From assembly GCF_901538265.1 (NCBI RefSeq), contig NZ_LR593886.1:930001-994000 (forward strand): DNA of 64,000 nt. Direction: 5' to 3'. Positions 6,355 through 19,867 of the stretch are shown in pieces. This DNA is from Gemmata massiliana. GTDB taxonomy: Bacteria; Planctomycetota; Planctomycetia; Gemmatales; Gemmataceae. The position numbers and the translations under genes were made by a program. Numbering within the stretch: the first letter of the stretch is position 1; every line of letters begins with the position of its first letter. The notes under the pieces are model-generated. The model worked only from the letters and a program-made list of their open reading frames with translations. It did no database searches and was not told where the DNA came from.

Positions 6355-7609
6355 CCAGTAGTTTCAAGGGATTTGGCAGTGCCGCATGGGAGTTCCTAAG
6401 TTCAAGGTTCTCAGGCACTTGAACGGGAACCTCCCATGCGACGTGGTTACTCTACGATCACCCCGGCGGTGGTCCACGCGCTGACGCGCCGGCCCTTGGA
6501 ACGGACCCTCGATTGGACCGACTACAAGACGTCGATCACGAGCACCCAGTTGTTCGACCTGATACTGCTGGTCGCGAGCACCACGCGAACCCTGTTCGCG
6601 GTGGCGACCCGGTACTTCCACTTCTCGCACGAGACCGCGCGACAGGGCGTTCGTGCGAACCTGGGCTCCGAGGACCACCTCACGGCCCGGTTGGTTGATG
6701 CCCTTCATGACGTGGCCCGGTTCACGCGCCGGGACCGGAGGCGCCGGTGGACGTGCGCCATCGACGTGCATTACGTGCCGTTCTACGGGGACCGCTCGAC
6801 CCCGGGGATCATCGGCGGACCCAAGAAGGCCGGGACCTCGTTCTTCCACGCCTACGCCACGTGTGTCCTGATCCACAAGCACCGGCGATACACGGTCGGG
6901 TTGGTCACGGTGCACAAAGGGGACAAGCCACATCAGCAGGTACGAGCGCTGCTGGACCACGTGGCGGCTCGTGGGCTCACGGTTGGTGGAGTGGTGCTGG
7001 ACGCCGGGTTCGACAGCGGGGACGCGCTGCTGCTGTTGCAGCAATGGGATCTGTACTACGCGGTGCCGATCCGCAAGAAGGGGAAAGGCATGAACCGGCG
7101 CAACGAGTGCTACACCACGCCGTCGGGCACCGTCGCCACGATGGAATGGGTGACCGAGAAGACGCGCCGGTCCGTGTCCACCCGGGTGCTCGTGTGGCGC
7201 CGCCCGGGTGAATCGCACGCGCGGGTATATGCGTTCTCGGGTTGGGGTGATGCGGGGGCCGTATCCGAGGCGAAGCGCGCGTGGCTCGGGCGGCGCCGGT
7301 ACCGGGAGCGGTTCGGGATCGAAACCAGTTACCGGCAGAAGAACCAGGCCCGCGGGTGGACCACCAGCACCAACCCCGAGTACCGGTTGTTACTGGAGGG
7401 TGTGGCGTTGCTGTTGCGCCAGGTGTGGGTGTGCTTGGCACTCCGGATCGCACGCGCCCAGAACCGGAATGCGTGGGTGCATGAACTCCCGCTGGCCGAG
7501 ATGCTCGACTGGCTCACACAACGGATCCGCTCACGATACCCACGCACACGATGTATCACACTGACCCACAATACACTTACACGCGCGGTAACGCCTTGAA
7601 ACTACTGGC
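6354..7609 (+). mobile_element. Complete DDE insertion sequence (IS4-superfamily, ISH3-like), about 1.25 kb
   Basis: Perfect 16-base terminal inverted repeats at 6354-6369 (GCCAGTAGTTTCAAGG) and 7594-7609 bound a single intact transposase gene. The transposase stop overlaps the right repeat. No clear target-site duplication is seen at the flanks (TTCCTG before, AAGGG after). The outermost base of each repeat is ambiguous because the element sits inside a GC-rich palindrome. The intact ends and gene suggest a recent or active copy. Confidence 0.85.
6436..7599 (+). CDS. DDE transposase of the insertion sequence
   Basis: A 387-residue transposase with an RNase H-like catalytic core. The likely DDE residues are Asp110 (CAIDVHYVPFYGD), Asp189 (VVLDAGFDSGD) and Glu296 (RFGIETSYRQKNQ). 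The last sits in the Y-R-E-type signature of the IS4 superfamily, and the RYRERFGIETSYR to LLLEGVALLLR arrangement resembles ISH3-clade enzymes. It catalyses excision and insertion of the element bounded by the 16-base inverted repeats. The start ATG follows an AACGGGAACC leader without a strong ribosome site. The frame is uninterrupted, so the enzyme may be functional. The family assignment is by motif only. Confidence 0.88.
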   Translation: MRRGYSTITPAVVHALTRRPLERTLDWTDYKTSITSTQLFDLILLVASTTRTLFAVATRYFHFSHETARQGVRANLGSEDHLTARLVDALHDVARFTRRDRRRRWTCAIDVHYVPFYGDRSTPGIIGGPKKAGTSFFHAYATCVLIHKHRRYTVGLVTVHKGDKPHQQVRALLDHVAARGLTVGGVVLDAGFDSGDALLLLQQWDLYYAVPIRKKGKGMNRRNECYTTPSGTVATMEWVTEKTRRSVSTRVLVWRRPGESHARVYAFSGWGDAGAVSEAKRAWLGRRRYRERFGIETSYRQKNQARGWTTSTNPEYRLLLEGVALLLRQVWVCLALRIARAQNRNAWVHELPLAEMLDWLTQRIRSRYPRTRCITLTHNTLTRAVTP

Positions 7610-7670
7610 AAGGGAGCGGCTCGTTTAAACCACTGCCACGATCCTGAGTGAGAACCCGCTCGCCGCTGGT

Positions 7671-8702
7671 TTACTTCTTGGGTGCCGGGATTGGGTTTGG
7701 GAGAACGACTGGGTCGGGGAACGTGAGGTGGTACTTCGGGGCAGCCCGTCGCATCAGTTCCGCACGCAGTTTCGGGAGCTCGTTCGAGATCTTCGCACTC
7801 ATCACATCCATCAGCAGCGCCGGTTTCTCTTTCTCGAACGACTTGCTCTTGTCCGCGGGGATCACCTTATCGCACTTGAGGGCAATGAACCCTTTATTGC
7901 CTTCCAGTTCGATCTGAATGAGCGGACTGACTTCGCCGGATTGGAGTTTCGCGACTGCGGCGTACACGGCCTGTTCAGCTTGTCGTTCCTCAAACGGGCG
8001 CGCACGGGGAATTAACTCGGTTCGTCCGTCGGCTGCCACACTCGACCTCGGCTGCCCCGCTTGTGGGCCGCGCCGGGCGTGGGCATCGAACTCTTTTTCG
8101 CTCTCTCGCACCTTTTCGTAGGCCGCGCGTGCCTCGGTCTCGTTGCTCCACAAGATGATGCGGCAGTCGAGCTTTTCACCATATTTCAGGTCGAACGCCC
8201 GTCGCAGTTCCGCTTCGGTTGCGGCTTTGATTTTCGCGTGCGTCAGCCGGGTGAGCATTTGCAGCGGAATGTTTACGTCTTCGTTCCATTCCTCAAGTGT
8301 CTTGGACTGGCTCTTGAGCAGTTCTTCCGTGAGCTGTGCGCGGGTCATCTTGGCCGCCGCGCAAGTCGCGTCGAGCGCCGCCTCGATTTCTAGAGGCGCG
8401 AAGGTGAATCCTTCCTGAGCGAAGCCGCGCGCGATGATCTGGTTGTTTACGAACGGTTCCAGTTCCTTCTTCCCGTACCGGCGGATGAGGTGGTTCGCGA
8501 ACGCCTCGCGCGTGATTGGGACGTCGCCGAAAATGGTCGCGACCGGTTCCGACGGTTTTGGCGGTTTCGGCTCAGTTGGCTTCGCGTCCGCAGCTTTCGC
8601 GGCCGATACAGGCGCTGGTTGCGCAGAACTCTTCCACGTTCCGAAATCGGTGAATGCCGCGCCCGCTGCCACTGCCAGGGCCAGTTTCCATTTCGTAATC
8701 AT
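7671..8702 (-). CDS. SurA/parvulin-like foldase protein, tandem copy of the extension of the neighbouring sigma factor
   Basis: A 343-residue protein beginning with a hydrophobic anchor (MITKWKLALAVAAGAAF), a Pro/Lys-rich linker, then an IFGDVPITREAFANHLI segment and a helical region typical of SurA N-terminal chaperone domains. The C-terminal part (GEVSPLIQ, GFIALKCDKVIPA) resembles the end of parvulin peptidyl-prolyl isomerase domains. It aligns along its whole length with the C-terminal half of the adjacent sigma-factor fusion. The similarity continues about 35 bases upstream of its start into what is sigma-factor coding sequence in the other copy. It is therefore a truncated duplicate that starts at a formerly internal methionine. 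A foldase role outside the cytoplasm is inferred. Confidence 0.7.
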   Translation of the reverse strand: MITKWKLALAVAAGAAFTDFGTWKSSAQPAPVSAAKAADAKPTEPKPPKPSEPVATIFGDVPITREAFANHLIRRYGKKELEPFVNNQIIARGFAQEGFTFAPLEIEAALDATCAAAKMTRAQLTEELLKSQSKTLEEWNEDVNIPLQMLTRLTHAKIKAATEAELRRAFDLKYGEKLDCRIILWSNETEARAAYEKVRESEKEFDAHARRGPQAGQPRSSVAADGRTELIPRARPFEERQAEQAVYAAVAKLQSGEVSPLIQIELEGNKGFIALKCDKVIPADKSKSFEKEKPALLMDVMSAKISNELPKLRAELMRRAAPKYHLTFPDPVVLPNPIPAPKK

Positions 8703-8768
8703 GGTTCTCGTTACCCTTCCGTGAGGAACAGTACCCGGGCCGGGACCGCCCCGGAGCCCACCGTCGAT

Positions 8769-9521
8769 TCACTTCTTGGGTGCCGGGAGCGGCTTCGGGA
8801 GAACCATCGCATCGGTAAACGCGAGGTGGAATTTCGGTTTCGCTTCGCGCTTCAGTTCGTCGAACAGCTTCGGGATCTCTTTTTCCAGTCGGGCGTTTAC
8901 CACCTCGGGAAGGAGCATCGGCTTTTCCGCCTCGAACGACTTGCTCTTGTCGGCCGGGATCACCCGGTCGCACTTAACAACGATGAAGCCCGTTTCCGTT
9001 TTGATGAGGGGACTAATTTCACCCGCCTTCAGTTTTACCGCAGCCCGATGAGTGGCGTTGTCGCCGTTAATAGTCGGGGTGCGCGAGATCGGGAGGACGC
9101 GCCCGCCATTTGAAGCGAGGGCCGGTTCTGACTGGCGCCGGGCATAATCACTGAACTCATTTTCATTTTCGTGAATTCTTTCGTATGCTCCTTGTGCTTC
9201 GGTGCCCTTGTCTTTCGTCCAGGTAATGACCCGGCACGAAACCTTTTCTCCGTACTTCGCGTCAAAGGCTCGGCGCAGTTCTGCTTCGGTTATGGGCGGC
9301 ATCTTCGCTTGGCACAACCGAGCGAGCATGAGGCGCGGAACAACGACGTCTTCCGCCCATTCATCAAGCGTTTTCCCGTGCCGCGGGAGCACGTCTTTCG
9401 CGAATTGGGTGCGGGTCATTCCGAGGCTCTTACAGTCCTCGTCGAGCGCCGCCAGCACGTCGTCGCCGGTGATCCCCCAGTCTCTCCGCCCGAAGGCGTG
9501 TGCGATGATCTGCGTGTTCAC
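8769..9521 (-). CDS. Foldase (SurA/parvulin-like) C-terminal part of the frameshifted sigma-factor fusion
   Basis: This 250-residue frame starts within VNTQIIAHAF and matches the paralog at 7671-8702 from the NNQIIARGF segment onward. It is the downstream half of the gene that starts at 10543. A single missing base near 9545 separates the halves: the paralog reads TTCTTCCCGTACCGG where this copy reads TTCTTCCCTACCGA. The deletion creates a TAG stop in the upstream frame. A GTG at the head of this frame could permit separate translation, but the fragment would then lack the membrane anchor. Annotated separately because the frames differ; biologically it is one gene, either recently broken or affected by a sequence error. 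Confidence 0.65.
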   Translation of the reverse strand: MNTQIIAHAFGRRDWGITGDDVLAALDEDCKSLGMTRTQFAKDVLPRHGKTLDEWAEDVVVPRLMLARLCQAKMPPITEAELRRAFDAKYGEKVSCRVITWTKDKGTEAQGAYERIHENENEFSDYARRQSEPALASNGGRVLPISRTPTINGDNATHRAAVKLKAGEISPLIKTETGFIVVKCDRVIPADKSKSFEAEKPMLLPEVVNARLEKEIPKLFDELKREAKPKFHLAFTDAMVLPKPLPAPKK

Positions 9522-9544
9522 GAACAGATCCAGTTCCTTCTTCC

Positions 9545-10543
9545 CTACCGACGGATGAGGTGATCCGCGAATGCCTCGCGCGTGATTTGAACGTCGCCGA
9601 AGATGGTTGCGATCGGTTCCGGCCCGCTCACCGCCGGGATCTTTTTCTCGAGCGCTGCGGGCTTATCGGGGGGTAGCGCGGGCGGTAACGCAGCCACGGG
9701 CTGGTTCGGAGCGGTCGGTGTCGGTGGGTGTGCGGACGTTTGCCACGCACCGACACCGCTCAACCCGACGCACGCGGCGATCATGGCGCCGGCCAGTTTC
9801 CATTTCACGATCATCGATTTCACAGCCCCTTCCGTGAGGAACAAAACCCCGGCCGGGACCGCCCCGGCCGTTCGCGTGAGCGTGTGGACCGCGTTGCGCA
9901 CGGTCGCGCTCGCCAGTGACGCGGGTACGGTCAGCGCCAGCCCCGCGGTGACCGGGGCGACGCCGCGTCGGGCGAGCCGGGCGCGGAGCATCTTGCGCCC
10001 GCGTGCCAGCCGACTCGACAGCGTGCCCTCGGTCAGCCCCAGTTCGCGGGCCGCGGCGCGCCGACTCGTCCCCTGGATTTCGCACAGGATCAGCGGCTGG
10101 CGGTAGATCGCCGGCAGTGCGGCGAGTTCTTCGTCGAGGACCGCGCTCGCGTCGTCCGGTTCGCTCGACGGGATCGGTTGATCGCTCATCGCGGGTACCT
10201 GCCTTTCGTTCGCCAGGCGTTTGGCGCGGGCCGACCGTGCCCGGCGCGTCACCCGGAGCGCGACGCCGTAGAGCCACGGACCGAGTGACTCGCGCCACTC
10301 GGTCCCGCGTGCCCGGTTCACGAGCACGAGAAACGTGGCCTGGAACGCATCCTCGGCGTCCGGTGTGGCGCCCAGGAACCGGCGACACACGCCCAAGACG
10401 GTGGGGCCGTGGCGCCGGACCAGTTCCGCGAACGCGGCCTGATCGGTGCTTTTGAGAAACGCCGCTACGAGGTGAGCGTCGGTTCGCGGATCGTCCGCGC
10501 CCGCGGTCAACCGGGATACGGCGTGAAGGAGACTGGCCGGCAT
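9545..10543 (-). CDS. ECF-type RNA polymerase sigma factor with membrane-anchored foldase extension (frameshifted)
   Basis: Residues about 20-95 form sigma region 2 (FAELVRRHGPTVLGVCRRFL, DAEDAFQATFLVL). Residues about 115-175 form region 4 with the helix-turn-helix (SRRAAARELGLTEGTLSSRL). A predicted transmembrane segment follows at residues 244-267 (MIVKWKLAGAMIAACVGLSG), then a Pro-rich linker and the beginning of a SurA-like domain (TIFGDVQITREAF). ATG 10543 was chosen over an upstream in-frame ATG because GGAGG lies 8 bases before it and sigma homology begins there. No separate anti-sigma gene is adjacent, so the extension may act as a built-in sensor of envelope state; that is inference. 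The frame ends at a TAG produced by a one-base deletion, and the rest of the protein is in the frame 8769-9521. Confidence 0.8.
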   Translation of the reverse strand: MPASLLHAVSRLTAGADDPRTDAHLVAAFLKSTDQAAFAELVRRHGPTVLGVCRRFLGATPDAEDAFQATFLVLVNRARGTEWRESLGPWLYGVALRVTRRARSARAKRLANERQVPAMSDQPIPSSEPDDASAVLDEELAALPAIYRQPLILCEIQGTSRRAAARELGLTEGTLSSRLARGRKMLRARLARRGVAPVTAGLALTVPASLASATVRNAVHTLTRTAGAVPAGVLFLTEGAVKSMIVKWKLAGAMIAACVGLSGVGAWQTSAHPPTPTAPNQPVAALPPALPPDKPAALEKKIPAVSGPEPIATIFGDVQITREAFADHLIRR

Positions 10544-10705
10544 CGTGCGCCTCCGTGCGACGGGTCCGTTCAGAAGGGTATTGCAGCGAACCGCCTCGCG
10601 CGTCCCTATTTTTCCGCAACCGGTTCCGGGGAGCAAAAAAGAACGCGGTCGGCGCGAACAGAATTCGCGCCGACCGCGTGGGTTGAGGTTCGATCAAAGC
10701 GTGAG

Positions 10706-13700
10706 CTATTTGTCCGTGATCGGCGGTTTGAGCGGTGCCGGCGGTTTGTTCGGGGTACCCGGGGTGGTCGGTCCCGTCGGAGTGCCCGGCACCACCGGGT
10801 TGGTTGACACGGGCGGGGTACTCGGTGCCGGCGGTTTGCTCGGTGCGGGCGCCGGTTTCGGGTCTTGTGCCCGCAACGGGTTCTCGGGCTTCGCGATGGC
10901 GAACGGCCGAACGGCCGACGGGCGCCCGAGCGTCGGGTTCTGCGCCCCGCCGCTCAACTGGCGCACGCGGGCGGTCGCGTAGGTATCGAGTTCGTGGATG
11001 TAGACTACCCCGTCCTCGTCGATGTCGCCGTACCCGGACAGCCCCTCGACCAACCCGAGCGTGAAGAACCCGGCCTTGCTGATCGGGCTCTCGATGGCGT
11101 ACTCGCGCCCGAGCGAGGCGCACATGACGATCACCCCGGAGTCCTCGGCCGTCAGGTCGCGGACGAGGGTGTCGGCCTGGGCCGGGGCGCGCTCCTTCTC
11201 GGCGACCGAGCCGGAGTGACAGGCGTCCAGAATGGCGACCAACCGGCCGGGCATGTTGTCGAGCCGGGCCTTGAACTCGTCCCCGGGCAGGCACGAAGTG
11301 CCCTCGAAATCGTCCTGTTTGACGTCGAACGGGACGAGGTAGAACCGGTTGAAGAGGTCGCGCATCCCGTGGCCGGAGAAGGAGACGATGCCGACGTCCT
11401 GGGGCGTCATCTTCGACTTCATCCAGTCCAACCCGTCGCGGATGCCCTGTTTGGTCGCGTTCTTATCGGTGAGCAGCTTTACCTCGATCTTGGAGAACAC
11501 GTTTTTCGACTTGTCCTTGAACGCCGCGGCGAGCATTTCCGCGTCGGTGGCGCAGTATCGCAGCTTCAGACTACCGGGGTAGTCGGACACCCCCATCGCG
11601 AGGACGTACAGGTTCGGTTTGGGGATCTCGCCCGGGCGGACCACGACGCCAACCTTTGACATGCCCTTGCTCACAGAGGAGTCGGCGATGACGGCGACGG
11701 TGTGCGTTCCGGGCACGAGGGGAACTTCCCAGGTGGCTTCCGCCGGGACGCTCGGGTCGGCGTTCTCGAACCGCTTCACACCGGCAGTCCCTTTAAAAGG
11801 GCGCCCGTTCACGAGGAGGCGCATCGCGGTGATCGGGTGCTTGGTGCTCGTCGCGTGGGCCTTCACGGTGAAACTGTCCTTGTCGACTTTGATCTCGGTT
11901 TCGGTGAACCCGTCGAGCGTGACTTCCGGCGGGAGCACGTCGGCCACGCTGGTCGTCTGGACCAGGGCCTTGTCGAATTTCTGGGCCATCGCCATTGCCG
12001 CTTGCAGGTTGCCGGCGGGGATGAGGTACTTGAGCAGCGCCGGCTGGTACATGGACGAGCGGAACCGCTCGGCCGGGTGGACCTGCGGGATCTTGACCCC
12101 GGCCGCTTGGATCTGCCAGGCGATGAGGCGCTCGCCCTGCCCGGAACAGGCGTAGTACCCTTCCGGGGTCCACGCGATCCACTCGCGCCCGGCGATGAAA
12201 ATCGACATGATCGGTTCCTCGCGGTTCCGCTGCCAGATGCGGATCGTCTGGTCGGACGAGCCGGTCGCGAAGTATTTGCTGTCCGGCGACGGGGTCACGC
12301 AGAGTACGTTCCCGCTGTGGCCGACGAAATTTCCCATGATCCCGAGGTTCGCCGGGTTGACCATGTACAGGTTCCGGACCCCGCCCACGAGCACCGCGTT
12401 CCCCTTCGGCAGGATGGTGGCCGAGTAGATCGGTTCGCGGCCGGGGAGGGCGACCAGCGCCGGCTCGCGCCCGGCCGTCTGGACCATGAACACGCTCTTT
12501 TCCGTGCGCAGTTTGACCCCGGCGTCGTCACTTTCCACCGTTTGGGTGTACTTGGACGGGTCGGGCGGGTTGCCGACGCCGAACTCGTCGAGTCGGAAGG
12601 TGTTCTCCAGCGCGAGCACCCCTTCGTCTTTCTTGTTGCTGTTGCCCCACGCGATCGACTTGCCGTCCTTCGCCCACGCGATCGCCCACACGCCGTTCCC
12701 GGTACCGGCCAGCCGGTGCTCGATCTTGGCGTCGTCCGATTTCCAGATCAGCGTCTCGTTCTGGTTCCCGCCGCTGGACACGATCTGGCTCCCGTCGGCC
12801 GAGATGTCGAGCGCGAACACGACGTTGCTGTGGGCCGTGACGCCGACCCGCGGCACCCCGCTGTCGGCCGAGACGATGCCGGTCCACCCGCCGACGCCGG
12901 GGCTCGCGCCCGCGACCGCGATCTCGCGGTCATTGGGCGTGAATTGCAGTTGGTGAATGCGCACCGGTTTGCCGCCGTGGGTGACGGGCGCCAGGCTCTT
13001 TTGGAACTGCCCGTTCGCGGAGCCGAGCATGATCTCGCCCGTGGTCGTGCCGACCGCGAGCGTCTGGCCGTCGTTGCTCCAGGCGAGTGCCGAGGGCGTG
13101 ACCCCGCTGATCGGGAAATCCTTGTGCTGGGCGGTCGCCGCGAAGTTCCAGATCTGTACGAAGTGGTCGGCCCCGAGGGTGGCGAGCAGTTTCGCCTTCG
13201 GGTTCGGGTTGTACTTCACCTCCAGCACCCGCGCCTTGCTGATCGGGGGCGCGGGGTACGACGCGCCCGTGGACACGTTCACCATCTGGATCGTGCCGTT
13301 CTCGCACCCGACGCCGAGCCAGTTGCCGTCGTTGGAGAAGCTCAGGCCAGTGACCGTAGCGCTACCCACGTCGAGGCGCTTGATGAGCGCGCCGGTGTCG
13401 GGCGCGACGATGTAGATCGGCACCTGCCCGCCCTTAACTTTGGCCAGCGGTTCCCCAGAGACCGCGAGCCGCTTGCCGGACCGGGACATCGCCGCTGCCA
13501 AGAGTGAGCCTTCGTGACCCGGACCCGCGGGGAACCGGACGGTCTTCACCGTTTCGTTGGTGGTCGGGTCCCAGAACCGCACCGCCTTGTCTTCGCCAAC
13601 AGTGATGATCTGGTCATTTTTCGTGTTGAAGAACACCTTGCCGACGAACCCGGTGTGTCCGCCGGAGTCGAGCGTCAGTAGCGGGCGCAGCGTGCCCTTC

Positions 13701-14446
13701 GGTAGCGCTGGGGGGACCGGTAGTGGGCCGTCCGGCTTGAACGTGGTGGCGCGGACGAACGGGTCTTCGTCCGGCGCCAGCGGGGGAACGGGCGGTGCCT
13801 TGACTACGGGCGCCGTTGTCGTGAGCTTCCCGCCGCTGGGACGGATCTTCGGCGGGGGAGGGAGCGGAGGGAGCTGCGGCTCCTGTGGGTTAGCATTCTT
13901 GGGAGGGTTGGCGTTCGGGTTGGGGGGCGTGTTCGGCCCCGGGCCGGGCTTGGGTGGGTCCGCGTTCGGGCCGGGATTCGGCGTGGATGGGATCGGCCCG
14001 TTTGTCGGCTGGGGCTTCACCTCGGCCGTTGAGTCGTTCTTTGTCGGTTTACTCGATCCCGTGAGAGCAAAAATCAGCGCGCCGAGACCGCCGAGCAACA
14101 GTACCCCGGCAACGGCGCCCGCGATGATGATCTTCTGTTGTCCGGAGTCACCGCCCGCCTTCTTCTTTTTCTTTCGGGGAGCGTCGTCTTCGTCGTCTTC
14201 GTCATCATCGTCTCGACGGGAACGCTTGGTTGCCCGGGCGGATTTGGCATCCTCGGCCTTGAGGCGCTCTTTGGTGCCCGTACCGGGTTTGGACTTCTTT
14301 GATTTGGTCGGCGGTTCGTCCGCTTCCAGTGTGGCGACGAAGTCGTACCCGCACTTCAGGCAGGTAACGTCGTGGTCGCCCTCACCGTCAACGGTGAAGC
14401 GCATACTGGCGTCACACTTCGGGCACGGGGTCTTAATTACGGGCAC
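10706..14446 (-). CDS. Zinc ribbon-TM-WD40-caspase (peptidase C14) protein
   Basis: A 1,246-residue protein. Residues 1-35 are a zinc ribbon (CPKCDASM and CLKCGYDF). After a charged region a transmembrane helix lies near residues 106-130, followed by a long Pro/Asn-rich linker (about 150-240). Residues about 250-790 hold WD40-type beta-propeller repeats (for example SGNVLCVTPSPDSKYFATGS and DQTIRIW). The last third is a caspase-like domain with the catalytic dyad His1026 (FSGHGMRD) and Cys1076 (DACHSGS), and a Pro-rich tail ends the protein. By family knowledge such proteases cleave after basic or acidic residues and often act in regulated proteolysis or suicide responses. The propeller probably senses a partner. 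The position of the membrane helix would place the propeller and protease outside the cytoplasm if the zinc ribbon is inside. Confidence 0.85.
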   Translation of the reverse strand: MPVIKTPCPKCDASMRFTVDGEGDHDVTCLKCGYDFVATLEADEPPTKSKKSKPGTGTKERLKAEDAKSARATKRSRRDDDDEDDEDDAPRKKKKKAGGDSGQQKIIIAGAVAGVLLLGGLGALIFALTGSSKPTKNDSTAEVKPQPTNGPIPSTPNPGPNADPPKPGPGPNTPPNPNANPPKNANPQEPQLPPLPPPPKIRPSGGKLTTTAPVVKAPPVPPLAPDEDPFVRATTFKPDGPLPVPPALPKGTLRPLLTLDSGGHTGFVGKVFFNTKNDQIITVGEDKAVRFWDPTTNETVKTVRFPAGPGHEGSLLAAAMSRSGKRLAVSGEPLAKVKGGQVPIYIVAPDTGALIKRLDVGSATVTGLSFSNDGNWLGVGCENGTIQMVNVSTGASYPAPPISKARVLEVKYNPNPKAKLLATLGADHFVQIWNFAATAQHKDFPISGVTPSALAWSNDGQTLAVGTTTGEIMLGSANGQFQKSLAPVTHGGKPVRIHQLQFTPNDREIAVAGASPGVGGWTGIVSADSGVPRVGVTAHSNVVFALDISADGSQIVSSGGNQNETLIWKSDDAKIEHRLAGTGNGVWAIAWAKDGKSIAWGNSNKKDEGVLALENTFRLDEFGVGNPPDPSKYTQTVESDDAGVKLRTEKSVFMVQTAGREPALVALPGREPIYSATILPKGNAVLVGGVRNLYMVNPANLGIMGNFVGHSGNVLCVTPSPDSKYFATGSSDQTIRIWQRNREEPIMSIFIAGREWIAWTPEGYYACSGQGERLIAWQIQAAGVKIPQVHPAERFRSSMYQPALLKYLIPAGNLQAAMAMAQKFDKALVQTTSVADVLPPEVTLDGFTETEIKVDKDSFTVKAHATSTKHPITAMRLLVNGRPFKGTAGVKRFENADPSVPAEATWEVPLVPGTHTVAVIADSSVSKGMSKVGVVVRPGEIPKPNLYVLAMGVSDYPGSLKLRYCATDAEMLAAAFKDKSKNVFSKIEVKLLTDKNATKQGIRDGLDWMKSKMTPQDVGIVSFSGHGMRDLFNRFYLVPFDVKQDDFEGTSCLPGDEFKARLDNMPGRLVAILDACHSGSVAEKERAPAQADTLVRDLTAEDSGVIVMCASLGREYAIESPISKAGFFTLGLVEGLSGYGDIDEDGVVYIHELDTYATARVRQLSGGAQNPTLGRPSAVRPFAIAKPENPLRAQDPKPAPAPSKPPAPSTPPVSTNPVVPGTPTGPTTPGTPNKPPAPLKPPITDK

Positions 14447-16977: not shown

Positions 16978-19791
16978 TTAGATCCACTCGGCCTTCACGC
17001 GAAGGGTTTCGCCGGCGGAGTATTCGAGCGGGATTGCGTCGCCGTTCATCGCGAGCGGTTGGAGCACGTTCCCCATCCCGTCCACGAGCGCGGCCGTGTT
17101 CGGGTCGCGTGCGAACCGCAGGTCTGCTGCCCCACTGAACCCCGCCGTTTCAATGAGCGAACCGGTGATTGCACGGTTCGCGCCTTCACTCGGGTCGCAC
17201 GGGCGCAGGCTCATTAACAACAGACTTGGCATGTCGATGTGGGCCAGCCAGCCGGCCGCGCCGATTGCGGGCGGGCCTTTCTCAGTGAACACCACCGGCG
17301 ACGGCGACACCCAGCCCTGCGCGGTCTGCATCGGTACGTCGCGGTCGGTCGCGAGAAGCAAGTCGAAGGTGCGCGCTTGTTCGCCTTCGGGAACCAGAAT
17401 CACGTCCGCCATGCGCGCGCCGTGGCGCTGAACGAACGGCAACCCGCCCGTGAACAGGAACGATCGTTCTGCACCGAGGCGGACTTCGAGGTAATCGGGC
17501 GAAACCGGCCGCGTGTACCCTGTTTGTGCGTTCGAGCCGTTCACCCCGCGGAACAGGACCGCGCGCTCGTCGCGCCAGCCAAACCGCGCGCCGTAAAAAG
17601 CGTGCCACGGGTATCCCGTTGGCTGGTGCTTCACGTCGAGTTCGATGCGCAATTCCAGCACCGGCCGGCCGAGCCACGCCCGCACGCGCTGTTTGAAGGT
17701 CGCGAGGATCTCGTCGTGATCGTTGACCAGGTCGCCCGTGCTTACAATTTCGCCGAGCGCTGCGCCGCTGTTTGTCACGCGGACGTCCCGGGCGATCATC
17801 TTACTGCCGGGGTTGAACACCAACTGCTGACCGAACCGCGTGGCGCGCGTGCGCAGGTCGCGGAACGAGCGGATGCCGCCGGTGGTCGCGTCCACGTCGC
17901 ACTCGATGAACTCGTTCCGCACCGTTAAACCGTCTGCGAGTTTGATGCGTGGCTTGGGCGGTGCGGCATTTCCCGCACGCGGCACCCACGCGAACCCCAG
18001 CGACGGGACTTCCACCACGAGCCGCGCGGCGGTGCCGCTGAACTCCGCGGCCTTCACCGGATCGGCCACCGGAATCGCGCCGCGGACCCCGTTGATCTCC
18101 AGTGCCACGCGCCGCGTGAACCCACAGGGGTTGAACACCATCAACCCCGGCTGCCCATCTGCCGATCGCGCCTGAACGCGGTCCGCGAGTTTCTTCGCCC
18201 AGTGTGTTTCGAGAGGGGTGAGGGTGGGAGATTCTTCGCCTCCCGCTCCAATGTTTACCCCGCGCGTTTCGATCGCGTCTTCGACTTCGGTCAGTGCTCG
18301 GAGTGAGTCTTCGTCTTCGGGTGTGGGTGGTGTGAGGGCACGGTGGAGGGCCGCGAGTGTGAAGGTCGAGTCGATCCGCCGCCGGAGCCGGAGGTGGTTC
18401 GGGAACCCGCTTACGGGGTCCGGGCGGTGCAGGTTCGTCGTGCGGTCGTCGAGGTAGTCCGCGAAGAACTCATCGGCCGACTGTACGCCGATGTAGTCGC
18501 CGCTCGTGGCGCCGCCGAAGTAGCGACTCAAGTTGGTCCAGTCGCCGAACACGGGCGCGAGATCGGCCAGCGCGAGCAGGTCGTGGTACGTTGCGAATGC
18601 GGGTTCGGCCTTGTGAACGAGCGATACCGTGGGCGCGGAATCGTAACTGGTGGCCTGGTGCAGGTGGTAGACGAGGTTGAAGAACGTGTGCGGGTCGTGA
18701 GCCGGGAGCGGTTCGCGCGTGAACGCCTCGACCGCCTTGCCGTCGGGACCGGGCCAGTTCACCGCGGACGAACGGATGCTGGGAATCAGCCCGCCGTCTG
18801 AGCTGACCAGCACCGCGTGCTTGAAGCCCATGTGCGTGAGCCAGCCCGGGAGTTGCGGGTGGAACGCGCTCTTCTTGCGGCCGTAAACGGCGGGTTCGAC
18901 GCCGAACAGCTTATGCGTTGCGCGACGTGCCGCGCGGAGGTTCCACAACTGACTCTCAATCGGCAACAGGGCATCTTCGCGGTCGCGGTACGATCCGCAG
19001 CACAGATCTACCGCTTGCGGCAGATCGGGCGGGATTTTCGCTTTGAGTTCGCTGAACCGGTCCGGTGCCTGCTCCGCGAGTTGCTCCAGCGTTTCGCCGG
19101 ACGCGAGCACTGTAATGGGCAACCCGGCCGCGAGCGAGGCCGGCCACGGTGTATCGAGGTTCTTCGGGTCGACGTGAACCCAATCGAGCCAGTAGAGCGA
19201 GCCCGAATAAACCGGCTCGCGCCCGGCTTGCAGTTTCTCGGCCGCGCTCTTCAGGGACGCCTTGTAATCCTCGCTGCGTTCGAGTGCGTCCCGGGCGGCG
19301 ACCACATCGGCCCAGAAGCCGGGGGCGTCGAGCAGCTTCTCGTGGTCCATCGCCTCGTAGAGCGTGTCGAGCATAAGGTAGCCGTAGCCCAACCCGGCGA
19401 AGAGTCGAACGGCTTCCGGTGGTGCATCGAATAGGCCCGTGGCGCGGCCCGTCTCCCGGAGAGCAGAGAGTAATCGCTCGATGGTTTCCGCACGCGACGC
19501 GGTCGCCCGAAACACGACTGCGTTGGCCTGTTCGACGCGCTGGTTCCAGTCGTCTGGTTGGAACAGGTATGCGCCCTCGGGCACGCAGTACACGAACCCG
19601 GTTCGCGGGAGGTCGTGGTCGTAGGAGCTAGACGCTTGGGGCGGTTGCACGGCCCCGGCGAGCGCGGCCGGGTGCCACAGGGCCGCGAACCCGTTGAGCC
19701 ACGCGGCCACTTCGTCCGGAGTTTGTTGGAGCGGGTACGAGGTCGCGAGCCGGTACGACGAGAGCAGGTGCAGTTGGCGTTCTTCGCTCAT
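16978..19791 (-). CDS. GH38-like (alpha-mannosidase-type) glycoside hydrolase
   Basis: A 937-residue protein without an obvious signal peptide. The middle part (LPGWLTHMGFKHAVLVSS, then NWPGPDGKAVEAF) resembles the end of the GH38 catalytic barrel. The following helical segment and the C-terminal beta-sandwich (GLMVFNPCGFTRRVALEI, NEFIECDVDATTGGIRSF) match the usual domain order of alpha-mannosidases. The N-terminal HxD and nucleophile segments of classical GH38 enzymes could not be recognised, so the protein may be divergent or inactive. It sits upstream of a glycosyltransferase on the same strand. Confidence in the fold is moderate and in the mannosidase activity low. Confidence 0.55.
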   Translation of the reverse strand: MSEERQLHLLSSYRLATSYPLQQTPDEVAAWLNGFAALWHPAALAGAVQPPQASSSYDHDLPRTGFVYCVPEGAYLFQPDDWNQRVEQANAVVFRATASRAETIERLLSALRETGRATGLFDAPPEAVRLFAGLGYGYLMLDTLYEAMDHEKLLDAPGFWADVVAARDALERSEDYKASLKSAAEKLQAGREPVYSGSLYWLDWVHVDPKNLDTPWPASLAAGLPITVLASGETLEQLAEQAPDRFSELKAKIPPDLPQAVDLCCGSYRDREDALLPIESQLWNLRAARRATHKLFGVEPAVYGRKKSAFHPQLPGWLTHMGFKHAVLVSSDGGLIPSIRSSAVNWPGPDGKAVEAFTREPLPAHDPHTFFNLVYHLHQATSYDSAPTVSLVHKAEPAFATYHDLLALADLAPVFGDWTNLSRYFGGATSGDYIGVQSADEFFADYLDDRTTNLHRPDPVSGFPNHLRLRRRIDSTFTLAALHRALTPPTPEDEDSLRALTEVEDAIETRGVNIGAGGEESPTLTPLETHWAKKLADRVQARSADGQPGLMVFNPCGFTRRVALEINGVRGAIPVADPVKAAEFSGTAARLVVEVPSLGFAWVPRAGNAAPPKPRIKLADGLTVRNEFIECDVDATTGGIRSFRDLRTRATRFGQQLVFNPGSKMIARDVRVTNSGAALGEIVSTGDLVNDHDEILATFKQRVRAWLGRPVLELRIELDVKHQPTGYPWHAFYGARFGWRDERAVLFRGVNGSNAQTGYTRPVSPDYLEVRLGAERSFLFTGGLPFVQRHGARMADVILVPEGEQARTFDLLLATDRDVPMQTAQGWVSPSPVVFTEKGPPAIGAAGWLAHIDMPSLLLMSLRPCDPSEGANRAITGSLIETAGFSGAADLRFARDPNTAALVDGMGNVLQPLAMNGDAIPLEYSAGETLRVKAEWI

Positions 19792-19867
19792 GGTGGGTCG
19801 CTGGCGTGCAGTGGCTGGATCGGCGCGCGAACCCGGTTATAGTACAGAACCCGACGCCCGGTGCCCC

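Follow-up and report, generated by a model that had tools for sequence, protein, structure and literature searches.

Planctomycete ECF sigma factors with C-terminal extensions are a known class, and the extensions described in the available parts of two reports are WD40-like repeats (PMC8999054, PMC8567305). In the available part of one of them, group ECF57 has one cysteine in region 2 and one in region 4, and for IutY (ECF243) and the sigma-anti-sigma fusions of ECF48, ECF52 and ECF53 release by proteolysis is shown or proposed (PMC8999054). Among envelope chaperones, excerpts of two further reports describe SurA and PpiD as acting without isomerase activity: the SurA core alone largely substitutes for SurA, and PpiD is an inner-membrane-anchored chaperone whose parvulin domain is inactive (PMC7195389, PMC2956729).

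The gene described here belongs to this class of extended planctomycete ECF factors. It lies in a window of 64,000 nucleotides, the whole stretch of DNA that was analysed, from Gemmata massiliana, a soil-type bacterium whose genome is a single contig of 10.1 Mb. Like ECF57 and the WD40-type ECFs of Gemmataceae, as the available text presents them, it begins with an ECF sigma factor and continues into a long C-terminal part; here, however, the extension is a SurA/PrsA-like chaperone domain placed past a membrane helix. By the same text it also shares with ECF57 the cysteines of regions 2 and 4, one in each (LGVCRR and LILCEI in the translation), and no anti-sigma gene is seen adjoining. With IutY and ECF48/52/53, as excerpted, it has in common a sigma factor coupled to a membrane segment and to a domain outside, but no anti-sigma domain was found in its sigma-membrane part, for which Pfam gives no match at E up to 1. 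PpiD of E. coli, in the part of the report at hand, likewise combines a membrane anchor, a SurA-like N-region and a parvulin domain without activity (PMC2956729), but it carries no sigma factor. No title or opening lines in the literature searched name a sigma-foldase or sigma-SurA fusion; a mention in an ECF classification or survey is possible. Within that literature, a chaperone-type sensor on an ECF sigma factor appears not to have been described previously.

The whole fusion (sigma, helix and foldase) occupies positions 10543-8769 of the reverse strand and is interrupted by a TAG stop codon at 9547-9545. A sequence-only reading had put regions 2 and 4 of a sigma factor, a transmembrane helix and a SurA-like domain into one gene; Pfam and hydropathy agree with this one-strand arrangement, which is not due to chance, because the whole of it recurs in other genomes. 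The ECF sigma part (9545..10543, minus strand), running from the ATG at 10543 to the TAG, is a frame of 332 codons that contains regions 2 and 4, a linker and the membrane helix and reaches into the foldase domain. Region 2 (10223..10423, residues 41-107) matches PF04542, Sigma70_r2, with 39.5 bits (E 4.9e-10) and region 4 (9986..10138, residues 136-186) matches PF08281, Sigma70_r4_2, with 44.7 bits (E 1e-11), both on the minus strand and above the cut-offs. TIGR02937 gives 71.5 against a cut-off of 42.9, and the sigma factor consists of regions 2 and 4 only, in about 200 residues, as expected of an ECF factor. The membrane helix (9757..9816, minus strand) is predicted from a hydropathy scan and from alignment with intact fusions. 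Its Kyte-Doolittle mean of 1.48 over 19 residues is of the weakest kind among its relatives, and lysines lie toward its sigma side (MIVKWK...).

Upstream, a terminator-like hairpin with a 17-pair stem (10643..10679, minus strand) separates the sigma gene from a caspase gene. This neighbour (10706-14446, minus strand) encodes a 1246-residue protein that combines WD40 repeats with a caspase-like domain (PF00656, 6.7e-20), and a similar gene adjoins the sigma-foldase gene in G009, G012 and G002. A scan of 7500-10800 for sigma-70 promoters gave no match, and no protease gene was seen beside the fusion when the neighbourhood was looked over unsystematically.

Past the stop codon, the remaining fused foldase (8769..9521, minus strand) continues in a shifted frame that is stop-free for 250 codons. 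Its parvulin domain matches PF00639, Rotamase, with 41 bits (E 4.1e-10) against a cut-off of 21.7. A sigma-less copy of 343 residues with a signal-like N-terminus follows at 7671..8702 on the same strand; its own score is below that cut-off, so its parvulin-type fold rests on a predicted model. The AlphaFold model of the copy, built from five sequences (pLDDT 65, pTM 0.58), is best in the parvulin part and the last helix. It starts with a helical N-terminal domain, continues with a parvulin domain and ends in a long C-terminal helix, an order that agrees with that of SurA/PrsA chaperones. A PDB sequence search with the copy alone gave no meaningful match; Foldseek, run with the model, found PrsA (5tvl, 4.3e-8) and SurA in BAM complexes (9hga, 5.6e-5). 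The titles of its 22 PDB matches at E up to 0.001 name PrsA, SurA or other PPIase/SurA-like proteins, save for a leptospiral protein (3nrk) and a YrvJ-YacD model (9a7d). The SurA N-domain stays under the Pfam cut-off in every fusion tested; among the four fusions of the genus scanned, SurA_N appears in G002 only, at best 1.5e-4. A full-length model of a relative's fusion, built without an alignment, reached a pLDDT of 43.

Two active-site histidines define the parvulin PPIase enzyme. With the histidine columns placed by alignment to PrsA and read by eye, both the first-strand and the last-strand histidine are missing in all 31 aligned homologues: 10 fusions, 4 copies and 17 single-copy homologues. 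As the secreted single-copy proteins lack them too (17/17), the loss is older than the fusion and did not arise with it. The domain shares its sequence profile with PrsA and SurA foldases, and the modelled copy shares their fold, but it differs from them in lacking the catalytic histidines and in being fused to a sigma factor. It looks noncatalytic for proline isomerisation. The fused foldase is under purifying selection, with dN/dS between 0.20 and 0.42 in 10/10 pairs of five genomes.

We looked for orthologous sigma-foldase fusions, as the sequence-only reading had suggested, by searching 95 Gemmataceae genomes with the fusion of G012, whose first 337 residues are 89% identical to the sigma frame of the window. 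At least eight of these genomes, from four genera, encode sigma and foldase in a single open frame, a lower bound as about 14 candidates were scored per genome. The intact fusions are those of G002, G012 and G016 (same genus), G112, G114 and G116 (g57), G077 (g49) and G067 (g43), and the sigma-foldase fusion is a real gene type. The fusion at L075:1205-3316 has some 100-150 extra residues between membrane helix and foldase domain. A tree of the sigma parts, which took in 45 of the 101 other sigma factors of the window's genome, joins nine of ten fusion sigmas and two sigma-SurA proteins in one group (SH-aLRT 95). G067 falls elsewhere, and therefore the sigma-foldase pairing may have arisen twice. 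In the foldase tree, nine fusions cluster with four copies (96/86), and the 17 single-copy homologues (5 from the genus and 12 of the 25 loci L014-L038) lie outside this group; G067 also stands outside, on a long branch, and G077 inside, again on a long branch.

The two sigma-SurA proteins occur in G012 and G002, where another sigma fusion derived from the same locus has a different C-terminus (L043:4506-5903 and L039:8011-9513). In G002 it sits beside the fusion and the copy, in G012 beside the other flank of the locus. In both cases its sigma clusters with that of the fusion from the same species (SH-aLRT 99 and 93), and its C-terminus resembles a type of SurA-like lipoprotein matched in 75 of the 95 genomes, with an identity of up to 71% (G004). 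The window genome's own lipoprotein of this type contains SurA_N_3 (3.8e-8) and Rotamase_2 (1.5e-15). In G012, the version joined to sigma retains the N-module and ~20 residues at its end, and about 148 isomerase-bearing residues are missing; the trimmed module is not above the Pfam cut-off, its identity resting on direct alignment.

Sigma factors of this layout are numerous in the window's genome, where 121 sigma matches yielded 102 usable frames of a sigma-membrane-X type. Sequence was fetched for 104 of the 121 places, the other 17 being 15 short frames (186-289 codons), the linker of the copy and the second half of the gene in stretch L186; the truncated or split genes L184 and L186 were then omitted. 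All 102 frames have a hydrophobic segment after region 4 (19-residue mean hydropathy of at least 1.4). Their C-terminal parts span 30-989 residues, some frames being cut by the end of the fetched stretch. The largest count for a single Pfam family is that of a beta-propeller family, with 31 of the 102 (the fused foldase frame was substituted for the broken fusion's own C-terminus). By a loose pattern, 43 of the 102 have the cysteines of both region 2 and region 4. Searching the same genome with the copy retrieved only the fusion, the copy itself and one single-copy homologue of the secreted type. The fusion is thus one rare sensor among about a hundred sigma-membrane-X proteins.

In the window, the fusion is split, leaving the anchored sigma without most of its sensor. 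The one-base deletion near 9545 that had been noticed against the downstream copy is confirmed by alignment: where the frame breaks, the window lacks one base relative to its own copy and to G009, G012, G002 and G016. Programmed frameshifting is ruled out because intact relatives read straight through the site. The fusion of G009 (Gemmata sp. IIL30, scaffold HG799462.1), the closest relative among the genomes searched, is also broken, by a different lesion: a 246-bp tandem repeat of the region from sigma region 4 to the membrane segment, which shifts the frame. Over 20 kb collinear between the two genomes, only 16978-19836 (minus strand) clearly differs in frame besides the fusion. There, the window has one open frame of 952 codons and G009 two frames with about 280 extra bases; the product has no Pfam match at E up to 0.01. 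With only one other collinear gene differing in frame, lesions in both genomes are unlikely to be mere noise.

It is quite possible, if somewhat short of an even chance, that the split comes from an error in sequencing or assembly and that the gene is intact in the cell. The difference is a single base, and the shifted frame is open over its 250 codons with no further damage. Another sigma-membrane gene of the same genome, at C1:6239927-6240807 in stretch L186, is also split between two frames. Against an error speak the assembly into one contig and the breakage of the sister fusion by a lesion of its own, in a region with a single other frame difference.

Comparison of the two sisters also reveals a mosaic. 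Their identity is 70-85% within ~9800-8770 and mostly 85-99% outside, and dS is 0.116 for the sigma part, 0.262 for the upstream caspase gene and 0.246 for the copy, against 0.884 for the fused foldase. Conservation of the sigma sequence contrasts with a mosaic foldase part. Because of this synonymous excess, fast mutation alone is insufficient, and neutral decay as a cause of the divergence is rejected by the same values together with the foldase dN/dS of 0.22; the simplest reading of these sequences is that the sensor half was swapped by exchange. That the fusion is decaying in this species pair, with only the sigma-less copy still useful, is possible but rather doubtful. The lesions do differ between the two genomes, whose copies are strongly conserved (dN/dS 0.107). 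The fusion, however, is under purifying selection in its sigma part (dN/dS 0.18) as well as in its foldase, it has no additional stops, and its foldase dS of 0.88 exceeds what decay alone gives and points to exchange. With two sister genomes carrying a broken fusion, the gene may be dispensable.

The copy is related to the fusion, as alignment of the two bears out: it is 69-71% identical in DNA, in two pieces, and its residues 76-343 are 52% identical to the fused foldase. A 77-bp segment across its start codon (8679..8754, minus strand) is 82% identical to the DNA of the fusion's linker and membrane segment. The similarity to sigma-coding sequence previously proposed upstream of the copy therefore holds for the linker between region 4 and the helix, and does not extend to regions 2 or 4. 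Directly after the copy, 6436-7599 (plus strand) is a DDE-type transposase gene (PF01609, E 1.5e-4, slightly under the cut-off), within ~1.4 kb that is missing from the otherwise collinear G009. G016 has the copy upstream of the fusion, and the copy's frame opens with a few residues resembling the sigma N-terminus. This frame start and the linker remnant suggest a fusion as the ancestor of the copies. In the foldase tree, the fusion of G002 joins the four copies in a 100/100 group, so the duplication predates the split of these species; gene conversion in G002 is probable.

The proposal that the copy compensates for the broken gene fails, the copy being older than the break, present beside intact fusions in G002 and G016, and devoid of a sigma part. 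We consider it unlikely that the copy is instead a dominant regulator of the fusion, a decoy and not a general chaperone: it has the same domain and adjoins the fusion in four of the five genus members with the locus, yet G012 retains an intact fusion without any copy.

We somewhat favour reading the locus as a one-protein envelope-stress switch made of an ECF sigma factor, a helix and a periplasmic, noncatalytic, client-binding SurA/PrsA-like domain. The cytoplasmic sigma would be held at the membrane by the single helix, with the foldase domain in the periplasm according to the predicted topology. Since SurA and PpiD chaperone without isomerase activity, the fused domain should, by analogy, bind unfolded chains outside the membrane. 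Client occupancy would change the state of the domain, and the sigma would be freed or activated by cleavage or conformational release. Release is most likely by proteolysis, first in a Pro/Ala-rich stretch outside the membrane and then within it, and the released sigma would act on transcription. The secreted copy, born from an old duplication of the fusion, would serve as a chaperone, perhaps in competition for the same clients. Direct sensing of envelope stress by the foldase part, as first suggested from sequence, is the best-supported function, given the noncatalytic-looking domain and the second, SurA-derived sigma fusion; the cell probably feels misfolded envelope proteins directly through the fused foldase. 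That the domain is a working periplasmic chaperone, with a sigma that merely follows or controls its own level, is improbable: the same domain does occur in secreted sigma-less proteins of this genome, but the sigma-membrane module is joined to about a hundred different C-terminal parts, as for interchangeable input domains.

More tentatively, these genes could form a direct counterpart, of Gemmata type, to the unfolded-protein response, in which one ECF lineage has adopted two unlike envelope chaperones as membrane-tied sensors, the sensor half being swapped or varied between species through recombination near the membrane segment while the sigma stays constant. One sensor is parvulin-like without catalytic histidines; the other is a SurA-like lipoprotein with its isomerase domain cut out. 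In the eukaryotic response, ATF6 and Ire1 are membrane-tied regulators with an unfolded-protein sensing part outside, a likeness we draw as analogy only, with no claim of homology. In the envelope-stress sigma systems known so far, misfolding is sensed by way of proteases and anti-sigma factors that are proteins of their own, according to the available part of one report (PMC8103513). If our reading is true, no envelope-stress pathway of that sort would be shorter than a sigma factor equipped with a sensor of its own, derived from a chaperone, and the roughly one hundred unexplained sigma-membrane-X proteins of this genome would gain a testable rule: the X part names the signal.
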